DNA of 64,000 bases, from contig NZ_CP084260.1 of assembly GCF_022879575.1 (NCBI RefSeq), forward strand, positions 372,001 to 436,000. Reading direction: 5' to 3'. The notes beneath the pieces are model-generated. The model had not been told where the DNA came from. It searched no databases and was given only the letters and a program-made list of their open reading frames with translations. Position 1 is the first letter of the stretch. The number at the start of each line of letters is the position of its first letter. A program made the position numbers and the translations under genes. This document shows positions 1 through 6,700 of this stretch, one piece after another. The DNA is from Caballeronia sp. SL2Y3. GTDB taxonomy: Bacteria > Pseudomonadota > Gammaproteobacteria > Burkholderiales > Burkholderiaceae.

Positions 1-841
1 GAATCTGATTCTCATGCTTCTTCGAACTATTCGCATGGCTCGCGTCGATCATCAGCCGCGCCGCTAATCCCGCCTTGCCGATATCGCTGCACGCGGCATC
101 GACCGAAGCCGCATCGAAGTTCGGCGCTTTACCGCCGCGCAAGATGATATGGCAGTCCTCATTGCCAGCAGTCGAAACGATCGCCGAATGCCCGCCCTTC
201 GTCACAGAAAGAAAATGATGCGGCTGCGAAGCGGCCTTTATCGCATCCACCGCGATTTTCACGTTGCCATCAGTGCCATTCTTGAATCCGACCGGACACG
301 AAAGCCCCGAAGCCAATTCCCGATGCACTTGCGATTCGGTCGTCCGCGCGCCGATCGCGCCCCACGAAATCAAGTCCGCGATGTATTGCGGGCTGATCAT
401 GTCGAGATATTCCGTCCCCGCCGGCAGCCCGAGCTCGTTGACATGCATGAGCAATTCTCGCGCGGCGCGCAATCCGTCGTTGATCTTGAAGCTGTTGTCC
501 ATGTACGGATCGTTGATCAGCCCTTTCCAGCCGACTGTCGTACGCGGTTTTTCGAAATACACGCGCATCACGATTTCCAGTTCGCCCGCGAACCGCTTGC
601 GCTGCTCGATCAAGCGCCCCGCATATTCCAGCGCCGCCTTCGGGTCGTGAATCGAACACGGCCCAATGATGACGATCAACCGGTCATCCATGCCGTGCAG
701 AATCCGATGCATCGATTGCCGCGCGTTGAAGATGAGATCGGACACCGGCTCCGTGCACGGAAATTCGCGGATCAAATGCGCGGGCGGGACGAGCTCCTTC
801 AACTCGCGGATACGAACGTCATCGGTATTGTGCGGGGGCAT
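1..841 (-). CDS. aroG: 3-deoxy-7-phosphoheptulonate synthase (DAHP synthase), 3' end outside window
   Basis: Catalyses the first step of the shikimate pathway, condensing phosphoenolpyruvate and erythrose 4-phosphate. The readable N-terminal 280 codons begin MPPHNTDDVRIREL and contain type I DAHP synthase blocks: IIGPCSIHD, MRVYFEKPRTTVGWKGLINDP, AIGARTTESQ and GGKAPNFD. The reading frame stays open to the window edge, so the C-terminus is missing. The ATG at 841-839 has a GGAG ribosome site at 852-849, seven bases upstream. An intrinsic terminator lies only 45 bases before the start, and an aromatic-rich leader peptide lies upstream of it, so expression is very likely attenuated by aromatic amino acid supply. 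Which aromatic amino acid feeds back on the enzyme cannot be told from this fragment. Confidence 0.95.
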   Translation of the reverse strand, partial: MPPHNTDDVRIRELKELVPPAHLIREFPCTEPVSDLIFNARQSMHRILHGMDDRLIVIIGPCSIHDPKAALEYAGRLIEQRKRFAGELEIVMRVYFEKPRTTVGWKGLINDPYMDNSFKINDGLRAARELLMHVNELGLPAGTEYLDMISPQYIADLISWGAIGARTTESQVHRELASGLSCPVGFKNGTDGNVKIAVDAIKAASQPHHFLSVTKGGHSAIVSTAGNEDCHIILRGGKAPNFDAASVDAACSDIGKAGLAARLMIDASHANSSKKHENQI

Positions 842-885
842 GGCGATTCTCCAACGGCAATGTTCTGTGCAAAAAATGGAAGGCG

Positions 886-918
886 AAAAAAAACCGCCAG
901 ACTTGGCTGGCGGTTTTT
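886..918 (-). terminator. Attenuator terminator of the aroG leader
   Basis: On the minus strand a stem AAAAACCGCCAG / CTGGCGGTTTTT (plus positions 907-918 and 889-900) encloses a six-base loop and runs into eight T residues (893-886). It sits 45 bases before the aroG start, downstream of a leader peptide, so it acts inside the aroG transcript rather than only ending tldD. Confidence 0.9.
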
Positions 919-953
919 CGGGAATTCGGTTTTGCGTATCTGCAACCTACGAC

Positions 954-1019
954 TCACCCCTCTCGATCCGCCAGCGGCTTGAGATGCCAAAAGAAATAAA
1001 AATAAAACTTGGCGGACAT
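954..1019 (-). CDS. aroG leader peptide (21 residues, aromatic-rich)
   Basis: A short reading frame starts with ATG at 1019-1017 and ends with TGA at 956-954. After MSAK it carries seven consecutive aromatic codons, FYFYFFW (four Phe, two Tyr, one Trp), followed by HLKPLADREG. Its second and third codons form attenuator segment 1 (1016-1010) and its CTG GCG GAT codons form segment 2 (974-967). This is the classic layout of a ribosome-stalling leader peptide that senses charged aromatic tRNAs. The ribosome site before it is weak by eye. Seven aromatic codons in a row just after a promoter and just before a terminator and aroG make chance unlikely. Confidence 0.88.
   Translation of the reverse strand: MSAKFYFYFFWHLKPLADREG
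954..1019 (-). promoter_or_regulatory. Attenuator segments 1 and 2 of the aroG leader
   Basis: Segment 1 TCCGCCA (1016-1010) is exactly complementary to TGGCGGA inside segment 2 CTGGCGGA (974-967). Segment 2 shares CTGGCGG with the 3' arm of the terminator (segment 4), so it can pair instead with segment 3 CCGCCAG (913-907). A ribosome stalled on the aromatic codons would mask segment 1, freeing segment 2 to pair with segment 3 and block the terminator. The mechanism is inferred from the complementarity. Confidence 0.8.
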
Positions 1020-1056
1020 GGTGAGCACAGGGCGCATTGCAAAAAGGGTGACCGTC

Positions 1057-1086
1057 TTTATAACCTCAAACGGGCGGCGCTGACAA
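1057..1086 (-). promoter_or_regulatory. Sigma-70-type promoter for the aroG leader
   Basis: A -35 TTGTCA (1086-1081) and a -10 TATAAA (1062-1057) are separated by 18 bases on the minus strand. Each differs from consensus at one position. Transcription would start near 1050, giving an aroG leader of roughly 210 bases that includes the leader peptide and terminator. Confidence 0.7.
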
Positions 1087-1170
1087 GCGGCCACGCGTCG
1101 AACGCGGGAAATCCGCATCGGCGGGTGCGAACCATTCCGAACGCGCCGCCGCCGATGCGGTAAAACGGCA

Positions 1171-2637
<1,467 letters not shown>

Positions 2638-2813
2638 GCGGTGCCTATTGCGTTGATGCAGCGTGTTCGGTGAATTTCGGACAATCCTACTGTCCGCGTC
2701 GTTCAGGCCATGTGCGGGACCACTTCCGCGCGTTCAAGGCCGTCAAAAAGCCTATTTTCGAGATGCGGCGCGTCAGCGCCACGTCGGGACATCGGGACGT
2801 GGCGCAGGAACGC

Positions 2814-3647
2814 CTACGCGATCACCCGATGCCGATACGCCGGCAAACTCTGCCGCACGCTCGCGATGCGTTCGGGATCGATCGCGCCCGCGACGACGCC
2901 CGCGCCTTCCTCGCGCACGGCGACGATTTCGCCCCAAGGGTCGATCAGCATGCTATGCCCCCACGTGCGGCGACCGTTTTCGTGCTTGCCGCCTTGCGCG
3001 GCGGCGAGCACGTAGCACTGGTTCTCGATCGCCCGCGCCTTCAGGAGCGTCTCCCAGTGCGCTTTGCCGGTCGTGTACGTGAACGCGGACGGCACGACGA
3101 TCAGCGCGCAGTCGCCCATCTTCCGATACAGCTCGGGAAAGCGCAGGTCGTAGCAGACGGAGAGGCCCACGCGCCCGAACGGCGCTTCGAAGGTGCGCAC
3201 GTCCGCGCCGGGCACGATGCTGCGCGCTTCGTCGAACGATTCCTCGCCCTTTTCGAAATTGAACAGATGAATCTTGTCGTAGCGCGCGACCTGCTCGCCG
3301 TCTGGACCGAAGACGAGCGACGTATTCAGCACGCGCGACGCTTCCGGCGACTTCAGCGGCAGCGTCCCGCCGATGACCCACACGCCATGTTTGCGCGCGG
3401 CGTCCGAGAGAAACTGCTGAATGGGGCCGTCGCCGGGCGTTTCGCGGATCGCGAGCTTGTCCGTGTCCTTGAAACCCATGAAGCAGAAGTACTCGGGCAG
3501 CAGCACCAGTTGCGCGCCGCCTTGCGCGGCCTCGGCAATGAGCCGCCCGGCCTCGGCCAGATTGCGGTCGCGATCCGGCGTGCTCACCATTTGCAGCGCG
3601 GCGACCTGGAACGGCCGCACGGTGCTTTCGCTCGATTGTTCGGTCAT
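2814..3647 (-). CDS. Carbon-nitrogen hydrolase family protein (nitrilase superfamily, Nit-like amidase)
   Basis: Nitrilase-superfamily amidase of about 277 residues. The catalytic triad is visible: Glu52 in LLPEYF, Lys125 in RYDKIHLFNFE and Cys165 in SVCYDLRFPELY. The pattern resembles the Nit1/NitB branch that hydrolyses deaminated glutathione, but the substrate cannot be read from sequence. The ATG at 3647 is preferred because MTEQSSESTVRPFQVAALQM gives a normal N-terminus; a GTG at 3686 would add 13 residues without family support. It lies 60 bases after yhdP and before tldD, so the three genes are probably cotranscribed. Confidence 0.85.
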   Translation of the reverse strand: MTEQSSESTVRPFQVAALQMVSTPDRDRNLAEAGRLIAEAAQGGAQLVLLPEYFCFMGFKDTDKLAIRETPGDGPIQQFLSDAARKHGVWVIGGTLPLKSPEASRVLNTSLVFGPDGEQVARYDKIHLFNFEKGEESFDEARSIVPGADVRTFEAPFGRVGLSVCYDLRFPELYRKMGDCALIVVPSAFTYTTGKAHWETLLKARAIENQCYVLAAAQGGKHENGRRTWGHSMLIDPWGEIVAVREEGAGVVAGAIDPERIASVRQSLPAYRHRVIA

Positions 3648-3707
3648 GTTCGTGGCGCTGGGTTGGTCGAAAGAGGACGTCCGCACGTTTCGACGGGCGC
3701 CCCGCTT

Positions 3708-6700
3708 TTATTGAGCGGCTGACGGACGCGCGACGGCAGCGGGTGATTCGATCTTACCCTGATCGCCATGCAGGCGCTGAATGACCGGCTTGGTCCACGA
3801 TCCGGTGATCGAATAGTCGGCCGCGAAGGCTTTCTTGATCGACTGCGACAGCGCGAGGTCGGCCGCGAGCGCGCCGAGACCGAGCAGCGGATTGATGACC
3901 GCCGCGCCGAGCGCCACCGCGCCCGCGCCGACCGTCGGAATCACCTTGACGCGAAGATCCTGCGTCTTCTTCGGCAGATCGACTGAGCCGTGCGCCTGCA
4001 CGCGCGCGGGCGGCGTGATCATCGAAAGATCGTCGGTGCGGCCGATGCCCTTCGCGATGCGCGCATTGCCCGTGAGCTTCTCGAACGGCAGCCCCTTGCC
4101 GACCACATCCTCGAAATGCAGCGTGAGCAGATTGGCGAGGCTGCGCAGGCTCAGAATGCCGAGCCACTTTGCGGCGGCCGGCGCGCGCAGAATCTGCCCG
4201 TGCCGCAAATCGACCGCCACCGTGCCGTCGAGCGTGGGCAGATCGACCGCGGTCGGACCACCGTTCCAGCCCGCGTGACCGGATACCGAACCGGTCGCGC
4301 CATTGACCGAATGCGGCAGACCGAAGCGGTCCAGGAACTGCCCGCCGTTGTTCACGTCCAGCCTGAAATCGACCGACGTGCGCCGGGGCGCGGCATCGTC
4401 GCCGCGTCGCGGCTGCGCGCCCGGCAGCGCGCGCCAGATGGCGTTCGCGGTGAAGGTCGCGTCCGGGTTGGCGAGCTGCAACTTGTCGAGCGTCCAGATC
4501 GGCTCATCGGCGACGGCTTCGTTGTGCGCATTCACTTCGAGCCGGCCCAGATCGCGGCCGCGCAGAAGAAGTTGATTCACGATCACATCGATGGACGGCA
4601 TGTTGCGCGGCGGCCTGCTCATCGCTTTCTCGGCGGGCGCGTTGTCCGCTTTGTCGGGAATCGCCACTTTGTCGAGCCGCGCCTGCACCGCGCCGGGGCC
4701 GCCTTTGACCGCGCCGGGCGTGAACGCGACGCTGCCCGTCACCTGATCCGATGCGATGTTCGCGAGCCACTTGCGATCGCTCGACTCCTCGCGCGCGTCG
4801 ATGGCGATGTTCTCCCAGCGCCGGTCGAGGAGCTTCAGCGTGCCGATGTGCAGCGCGGCGCGCGTCGGCACGAACTGGCGGGCGGTGTCGCTCATGGGCG
4901 AAGCGGGCGGGGAGGGCGTCGTTTGTGCCGCCGTCGCGTCCGCGAACACCTTGCGCCACGCATCGGCGTCGAGCGTATTCAGGTCCACGTCGGCGGCCAC
5001 GCCTTCTGCCGGCAAGTCGGCGGGCTTGTTCACGGCGATCGCGCCGCGCACGGCCTGCAAGGTCGCGCGCATGTTCATCGGCGCGGCCGGGCTTTCGGTG
5101 TCGATCTTCACTTCCGCCCGGCCGATCCGCCGCAACTGGTAATGCGCCGCGAGCGGCCCGAGCGTGAGCCGCGCGTCGTGCAGATCCGATGCGACGCCGG
5201 GCGCGGGCGCGAAGCTGAACGCGAAGGGCATCGGCGCGCCCTTCGCCTTGCCGAACGGCGCGGGCAAGTCGATGCCGACGCCCGTGAGATCCGCTTTCGC
5301 CTGCACGTCGGGCAACGCGTTCTTCGCGCCGCGCACGTGCAGTTCATACGGCGCGGCGCCGTCGATGCGCGTCAGAAGCTGCGTGACCTGCGGCGTCATG
5401 CGGCCGTTGAAGCGCGCGGCGGCGTCGGTGCCGATGCGCCCGTTCACATCGAACGCATAGCTGCCGTCGGGCCGCACGCCGCCTGCCGCGCGCACGTCGC
5501 CGCCGAGCAGTTGCGCCGTGAGCGAATCGAGCGCGACGGTCTTCGCCGCGAAGTCCGCGCGGCCGCGCAAATGCGTGAGCGGCGGCAGATTGGCATACGC
5601 GACTTCATTGTCGGCAAAGGTCAGCGAGCCTTTGTACTCCGTGCGCAGCGGCGGCAGCGGCGGCGGCGGGCGGAAGCGCGGAATGCCGAGCGTGAGCGCG
5701 AGCGACGCGTTGCCCTTCGCGTCGAGCTTGCGCGTCGCGTGCTTCGCCATCAGGCCGAGCGAGCTGTTATCGACGTATTGCAGCATGTCGGCGAGCGGGC
5801 CGCGCGCCTGGCCGTCGATCCACAGCTTCGTTTCGCGGTTGCCCGTATCGTCGATACGTCCGATCACGCGCGACACGGCGACGCCCTTGTAATGCCCGCG
5901 ATGAATGTCGAAGCCGAGCTTGTTCTGCGCGAGCGTGAAGGTGCCGTCGATGCCTTCGAACGCCGGCCAGAAATTCGGCAAGCCGTTGGCCATCTTGCGC
6001 GGCGGGAACGGCGTCGGATCGAACTTGCCGCCGGTGAACGGCGCTTCGATGCGAAATACGCCGGCATCCGGAAACTTCGCGTACGGAAAGCGCGTGAGAT
6101 CGCCGTGCACTTCGAGCGTCGCGTTGCGCGCGACGCCCGCCTGCAACGCATGGCCGAGGTAGACGCGCACGCGTTCGTTCAGGCTCGTCGGCAGATAGCG
6201 CACCAGGTGCGTCGCGTTCAGGTGTGCGACCTTCGCCTTCAGGTCGAGATTGCCGCGGCCGTGCCCCTGATTCCAGTACGCGGCGGTGACTTCGCCCTCG
6301 GCGTCGGCGTTCTTCACGCGCAGCGTGTCCAGATGAATGGTGAACGCGCGGCGCAGCTCGCCCGGCGCGATGGCATCCGCGACGGTCCAGGTGGCGTGGC
6401 CCTGCAGCGAATCGAAGATGAGACGCGGGTCGTCGAACGCGCCGGGAATCGTCACGGCCGCGTTCTTCGTATCGATGCTGATGGTGCCTTGCGACTCGTT
6501 CGCGTCGACCGCGCCCCACAGGTTTTCGATGCCCGGAATGCCGGCGCGCGGGTGATTGTTCGCGGTCAGTCCCGGCGGCGGCTCCTGCGCCTGCACGCTG
6601 ATGCCCTGCAACTCGCCCTTGAACGCATAGTGCAGCAGCTTCGCGTCGCCTTTTTCGCGCTGGCGCTTCACTTCTTCCTCGCTGCGCGGCGGCGCGCGTT

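Follow-up and report, generated by a model that had tools for sequence, protein, structure and literature searches.

A probable aromatic-codon transcription attenuator upstream of aroG in Caballeronia and other Burkholderiales

The region upstream of aroG

The window (the whole 64-kb stretch of DNA that was analysed) opens in aroG, a DAHP synthase gene on the minus strand at 2..841, which is clipped by the window end and encodes 357 amino acids in the genome. The synthesis of all aromatic amino acids enters through DAHP synthase. Genes in the window were named from NCBIfam models. The aroG product scored 453.7 bits against TIGR00034 (cut-off 173.2), and 488.1 bits, below the cut-off of 568, against the AroG model NF006723, where the query was 280 of the 357 residues. 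The nearest solved structures are those of the Phe-sensitive DAHP synthase of E. coli, and a serine in the product aligns to Ser 211 of that enzyme. Upstream, at 1171..2637 and in the same direction as aroG, is tldD (NF008006, 673.1 bits, cut-off 513). Downstream of aroG there is a 416-aa ORF on the minus strand (L001:41-1291), which by eye resembles an IS256-type transposase.

The genome is 5.5 Mb. DAHP synthase is encoded twice in it, and a third gene belongs to the same Pfam family; from the sequence of its product we read it as a putative KdsA. The second DAHP synthase (L202, G000:C3:469829-470279) has, by eye, a glycine at the position of Ser 211, a position which presumably separates Phe from Tyr sensitivity in DAHP synthases. 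No aromatic leader was found in the 420 nt upstream of this second gene.

Between tldD and aroG, all on the minus strand, lie the parts of a putative attenuator. The predicted promoter has a -35 element, TTGTCA (1081..1086), and a -10 element, TATAAA (1057..1062), each matching five of the six consensus positions, with a spacer of 18 nt between them. A leader ORF of 21 codons, MSAKFYFYFFWHLKPLADREG, occupies 954..1019, with its ATG at 1019-1017 and its TGA at 956-954, and is supported by the sequence and by relatives. Its codons 5-11 are seven aromatic control codons in a row, TTT TAT TTT TAT TTC TTT TGG (987..1007). Segment 1, TCCGCCA (1010..1016), can pair with segment 2, CTGGCGGA (967..974), which is also the 5' arm of the antiterminator. 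Segment 3, CCGCCAG (907..913), is common to the antiterminator and the terminator, and segment 4, CTGGCGG (894..900), is the 3' arm of the terminator, an intrinsic one with a T8 tract at 886..893. Between the T8 tract and the aroG ATG at 841 there are 44 nt. Besides the sequence itself, the segments rest on the stall model (segment 1), the 2:3 pairing counts (segment 2), the covariation alignments (segment 3) and the 3:4 pairing counts (segment 4). The first-pass annotation had placed the promoter, the leader ORF, the four segments and the T8 tract, and on direct reading its coordinates were right to the base.

From the promoter sequence, the aroG transcript is predicted to start at about 1050, some 30 nt upstream of the leader ORF, and a terminated leader RNA would be about 160 nt long. 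The sigma-70 scan called no promoter at the aroG leader, and its rule demands a -10 element that ends in T, so TATAAA fails. The terminator scan missed the 3:4 hairpin and reported one overlapping five-pair site (898-882), where shuffled sequence gave more, 1.3. The RNA fold of 880-1050 had a z-score of -3.83, and none of 200 shuffles folded as well. Within the 64-kb window, the aroG leader is the only ORF of 8-40 codons that is rich in aromatics (5 of 8) and followed by a terminator, and for nine other residue classes the window held no rich ORF of that length followed by a terminator.

A second in-frame ATG is present at 1037 on the minus strand, six codons upstream of the leader start. It is also present in one relative (L004), and none was noticed by eye in the other aligned relatives.

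Conservation and pairing in relatives

The first-pass annotation had set conservation as its refutation test, and in relatives both the peptide frame and the segments are conserved. In the best 80 of 588 named relatives, an ORF with an aromatic run lies within 350 nt of aroG in all 80, and the run has at least six aromatics in eight codons in 78 of those 80. The exceptions are L018, with five aromatics in eight, and L059 (Ca. Vallotia), with four and a truncated peptide. By AroG, two of these 80 come closest, at 97%: Burkholderia sp. 8Y and Caballeronia concitans. On this ground the genome is called Caballeronia-like. Along the aromatic run of the close leaders, the amino acids are kept while the codons vary. 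Past the run, the reading frame shifts in four leaders (L009, L012, L013 and L018) and the RNA is kept there, so the 3' half of the leader ORF looks to be kept as RNA and not as peptide.

Pairing was counted in an alignment of 73 close leaders (A1), which omits eight of the 80 relatives: L053, L054, L072 (identical), L059 (decayed), L070, L076, L081 (Oxalobacteraceae) and L082. The counted helices were prescribed from the anatomy, RNAalifold not being used for them, and the cells of the covariation counts are sequences, not evolutionary events. In the terminator helix 3:4 all 875 cells of the close set are paired, and 12 of them are changed on both sides, AU having become GC in nine sequences at one pair and in three at another. 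Neither this number of double-changed cells nor the covariation score was equalled in any of 500 shuffles. The number of pairs changed on both sides was reached by 37 of the 500, and the pair types by all 500. Across families, 97.2% of 352 cells are paired in this helix and 19 are double-changed, a total that no shuffle out of 500 attained. Of these shuffles, 40 equalled the helix in changed pairs and all of them, again, in pair types.

The antiterminator helix 2:3 is paired in 511 of 511 cells of the close set, with G-U pairs in nine and two sequences. Segment 2 is invariant there, which makes the shuffle control uninformative; shifting the partner by 1-3 columns lowered the pairing to 14-50%. 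Across families, 92.9% of 308 cells are paired and ten are double-changed, all at one pair, a count equalled by two of 500 shuffles. The number of changed pairs was reached by 498 of these shuffles and the pair types by 499. Taken leader by leader, the 2:3 helix was better than letter shuffles at 0.05 in 79/81 close and 28/43 wider leaders. Helices 2:3 and 3:4 are mutually exclusive, and the compensated cells in both of them are the strongest single argument for a switch.

Helix 1:2 is less regular. In the alignment 92% of its cells are paired, without a double change and without an excess over shuffles. This outcome arises partly because the aligner shifts leaders that have an extra codon. 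When the helix was searched for freely, at least 6 bp were found in 75 of the 81 close leaders and in six of the 43 wider ones; segment 1 is weak in the wider families.

Segment 2 also sits in a local hairpin of the form TCTC..CCG..CGG..GAGA (961-984, minus strand), which is nearly invariant in the 73 leaders and is followed by a GGGG-rich sequence.

The start of the leader ORF seems to differ between groups. None of the 80 close relatives has AGGA, GGAG or GAGG in the stretch from about -20 to -4 relative to the leader ATG, and the start of aroG itself has a Shine-Dalgarno in 79 of the 80. Among wider leaders, a Shine-Dalgarno motif precedes the leader ATG in 1/26. In the 90 nt that precede the leader, TTGNCN followed after 15-20 nt by TATAAW occurs in 47/80 relatives. 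TATAAW by itself occurs in the 60 nt before the leader ATG in 55/79 close relatives, mostly at -45 to -40. In the wider leaders, TANNNT begins at -16 to -11 of the leader AUG in 25 of 44 (one genome having been entered twice, as L099 and L192) versus 2 of 79 in the close set, and seven control windows of the same width in wider leaders gave between 0 and 7. Because the -10-like element sits at -16 to -11 in many of the wider leaders and mostly at -45 to -40 in the close set, many families outside Burkholderiaceae probably make a leaderless leader mRNA that starts at the AUG. The leader mRNA of the window's own group probably has a short 5' UTR without a Shine-Dalgarno.

Distribution in Burkholderiales and beyond

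Among 399 genomes of the order, 116 matched a model built from the close leaders at E <=0.01, and by row count 84 of these had a full-length match. The 30 best matches in these 399 genomes, the window's own and its near relatives included, all adjoin aroG, and all have an aromatic peptide. Four lower-scoring matches were examined: two are aroG leaders (L241, L242), and two, second matches in other genomes (L239, L240), are not leaders, so the lower-scoring rows of the order-wide search hold false positives. Within the window's family, 241 of 299 genomes match at E <=0.001. In the window's own genome, at E <=10, this first model gave one full-length match, the aroG leader, and eight others that are fragments. 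An extra match of a second, wider model in the same genome (C1:2796599-2796703) was examined and is not a leader.

The wider model matched in 30 of 274 genomes of the class, 27 of them outside the order. Two of these, from one family outside the order (L221 and L223), have a leader before aroG, and their AroG is 68-71% identical to the window's; gene transfer or a misplaced family are possible explanations. For the other 25 genomes outside the order, no AroG was found in the flanking DNA examined, and no leader. For L228, L235 and L238, which lie at contig ends, the ORF scan was misplaced and the AroG test alone counts.

A model-free test was made by seeking AroG in 120 genomes of the order, 91 of which matched, and by reading 100 of the 119 upstream regions. 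The remaining 19 were the window's own aroG, that of G119, and the 17 paralogs of greatest distance. An ORF with at least five aromatics in eight codons, followed by a terminator, was found in 24 of the 100 regions, against a mean of 0.03 in dinucleotide shuffles; at four or more in eight it was 26 of 100 against 0.40. By hand, leaders were accepted in 26 of the 100 regions, from 12 families besides the window's own, and the element is thus present in at least 13 families. Among these 26, one has only four aromatics in eight (L180) and one has no terminator by the rule of the script (L191). Weak aromatic ORFs in six regions (L152, L157, L162, L171, L196 and L197), where no terminator was found, were not accepted, and a seventh with a terminator and four aromatics in eight (L200) was judged spurious. 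No leader was accepted in 74 of the 100 regions, among them that of the second DAHP synthase of the window's genome, all 13 genes of <=53% identity and many single-copy genes. The attenuator is patchy even within the order and absent from most of the upstream regions examined. The first-pass annotation had spoken of a sensor "in this genus", a scope which turned out too narrow, since the element is found in many families of the order, not in every genome.

Mechanism, inputs and known systems

These features make it very probable, on sequence and modelling, that the aroG leader is a ribosome-mediated transcription attenuator. The transcript would begin at the predicted start ahead of the leader ORF. 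When charged aromatic tRNA is ample, the ribosome would proceed along the leader and mask segment 2 near the stop codon (or 1:2 would form), which would let 3:4 form and halt RNA polymerase at the T8 tract. When charged tRNA-Phe or tRNA-Tyr is scarce, and perhaps tRNA-Trp in this lineage, the ribosome would stall on the run and leave segment 2 free; 2:3 would pair once segment 3 emerges, 3:4 would be blocked, and aroG would be transcribed.

For the model of the stalled ribosome, we assumed a footprint that begins 15 nt upstream of the P site and ends 11 nt past the first base of the A site, and we folded only the RNA that lies downstream of the ribosome, at a stage when segment 4 is still to be transcribed. 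The modelled probability of 2:3 is 1.00 with the A site at codons 2-12, 0.57 at codon 13 and 0.00 from codon 14. The run occupies codons 5-11, and in the model the geometry fits read-through whichever of its seven codons the ribosome stalls on, as had been proposed earlier. In each of the 124 leaders, 5-17 nt separate segment 2 from the last aromatic codon. When the stop codon occupies the A site, the footprint that we assumed reaches back just to 974 and covers the 7-bp core of segment 2 in the window. Among the relatives, a ribosome in that position masks segment 2 completely in 1/81 close and 12/43 wider leaders, and masks at least half of it in 38/81 and 20/43. For a stall on the last three aromatic codons, segment 1 is partly or fully upstream of the footprint.

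The local helix energies are -18.1 kcal/mol for 2:3, -17.0 for 3:4 and -14.7 for 1:2, before the loop costs of the long-range helices. At equilibrium the complete RNA always prefers the terminator 3:4, also when a ribosome is stalled on it, so the switch has to work kinetically, by timing. Even with no ribosome on the RNA, 2:3 outcompetes 1:2 as long as segment 4 is still to be transcribed.

Two readings do without a ribosome that measures amino acids. It is scarcely credible that the hairpin is the ordinary terminator of the upstream tldD unit with a chance ORF beside it. tldD does lie upstream in the same direction, but promoter-like sequence separates it from the aroG leader, segment 2 lies outside the terminator and yet hardly varies and pairs with segment 3, and the combination of aromatic ORF and terminator is far above shuffles (the 24 of 100 regions against 0.03); this excess, and the uniqueness of the combination in the 64-kb window, led us to reject a chance ORF. 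A riboswitch that binds a ligand or a protein, with the ORF present incidentally, might account for the near-invariance of the TCTC..GAGA hairpin around segment 2. We consider it highly improbable, as the run preserves amino acids while its codons vary, and as Rfam 15 gave no match up to E 1 in window positions 1-6000. An attenuator whose terminated RNA or leader peptide also acts in trans, in the manner of rnTrpL and peTrpL of S. meliloti (a precedent reported in PMC7298713), seems unlikely. The predicted terminated RNA and a peptide would arise whenever aromatics are plentiful, but in the four leaders named above a frame shift alters the C-terminal part of the peptide while the RNA is kept, and no selection on that part as a peptide is apparent.

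Which amino acids the attenuator would answer to is a closer question. The first-pass annotation had suggested that all three aromatic amino acids are integrated at this one gene; the aromatic attenuator before aroG is supported, and integration of all three is supported in part. Phe is in the run of every leader (81/81 close, 43/43 wider), Tyr in 119 of 124 (81/81 and 38/43) and Trp in 80 of 124 (61/81 and 19/43), and all three occur together in 78 of 124. That the input is Phe only, or Phe and Tyr, with Tyr or Trp codons as passengers or fillers of the same attenuator, is a real possibility, which we put somewhat under an even chance. In its favour, Phe is the sole residue found in every run, Trp is missing from 20/81 close and 24/43 wider leaders, and the AroG protein is nearest to Phe-sensitive DAHP synthases. 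Trp is missing in Pandoraea (0/4), in Oxalobacteraceae (0/4) and in half of the Cupriavidus group (6/12). Against it, Tyr is retained in nearly all of the leaders, and Trp in most of those from Caballeronia (15/16), the Paraburkholderia group (19/20), Burkholderia (10/10), Trinickia (4/4) and the Ralstonia group (4/4). A stall at the Trp codon would, in the model, also leave segment 2 free. The AroR leader of Corynebacterium glutamicum speaks for the narrower input: it contains both Phe and Tyr, and according to PMC11802643 it answers to Phe but is insensitive to Tyr supply, so the presence of a codon in the run does not by itself mark an input that works.

TTT makes up 281 of 337 Phe codons (83%) in 80 leaders versus 46 of 495 (9%) in the first 350 codons of aroG, and 129 of 211 in the wider leaders. 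Slow decoding and a need for RNA free of structure would each be consistent with this excess.

The mechanism of attenuation and a leader on a DAHP synthase gene are already known, and so are leaders that sense several amino acids. In the pheL leader of enterobacteria (RF01859), a Phe-rich peptide is combined with a terminator and an antiterminator, as at the aroG leader, but pheL controls pheA and not DAHP synthase, and the aroG run mixes Phe and Tyr and often Trp. The ilv and thr leaders of enterobacteria sense more than one amino acid with one leader peptide, differing in that these are branched-chain amino acids or Thr and Ile and the operons are others. The gathering score of RF01859, 55 bits, was not reached in the window or in nine relatives; three of the nine had full-length, chance-level matches at the leader (27.2-30 bits, E 0.18-0.74) and the other six had none. 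The leader peptide had no match up to E 10 in NCBIfam and Pfam, and a search of a plasmid collection in distant mode gave no match.

The closest case with an experimental test is AroR, an aromatic leader peptide before the DAHP synthase gene aroF of C. glutamicum, where ribosome stalling at a Phe-Tyr-Phe leader raises transcription (Neshat et al. 2014, as cited in an excerpt of PMC11802643). The two are likened by description, not by sequence, and AroR belongs to an actinobacterium, has a shorter run, and has no Trp named in that excerpt. In S. meliloti, the attenuator RNA of trpL starts with the ATG of the leader ORF, according to PMC7298713, which is the kind of start predicted here for many leaders outside Burkholderiaceae. 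That leader reads Trp only and controls trpE(G), whereas the Caballeronia leader has a predicted 5' UTR of about 30 nt. For two Vibrio species, Table 7 of PMC1173090 gives a database-predicted attenuator before aroF-tyrA (aroAI-alpha-Y > tyrA), thus also before a DAHP synthase gene; a leader peptide is absent from the description compared, which is part of that paper. We found no description in the literature of a leader peptide at aroG in Burkholderiales, though Vitreschak et al. 2004, on proteobacterial attenuators, might list the element. We take as new a probable attenuator of known mechanism with an unusual input and start, located at aroG in Burkholderiales.

The TrpR and TyrR regulons for aromatic genes are placed in gammaproteobacterial lineages in the part of PMC5343134 seen, and that part names no TrpR or TyrR control of aromatic genes for this order. 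A search for TrpR gave no match in the window's genome, and we found no account in the literature of DAHP synthase control in Burkholderiales. We are led to suspect, at just short of an even chance, that the attenuator is an RNA regulator widespread, and perhaps ancestral, in the betaproteobacterial order Burkholderiales, in which an often leaderless ORF would sum the charging of tRNAs for Phe, Tyr and in many lineages Trp for the first committed step of the shikimate pathway, replacing the TyrR and TrpR of enterobacteria. If this were true, one attenuator would explain the control of DAHP synthase for many families of the order, and aromatics overproducer strains in Cupriavidus or Paraburkholderia would have to account for it. 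The natural variants, with or without Trp or Tyr codons and with or without a 5' UTR, make a ready series on which inputs one leader can read.

One further variant was seen in Ca. Vallotia cooleyia (L059:1302-1426). This genome retains aroG, but the peptide of its leader has shrunk to MLAKFYFIF and erosion has reached both segment 2 and segment 3; from its sequence this leader appears to be a natural decayed copy.
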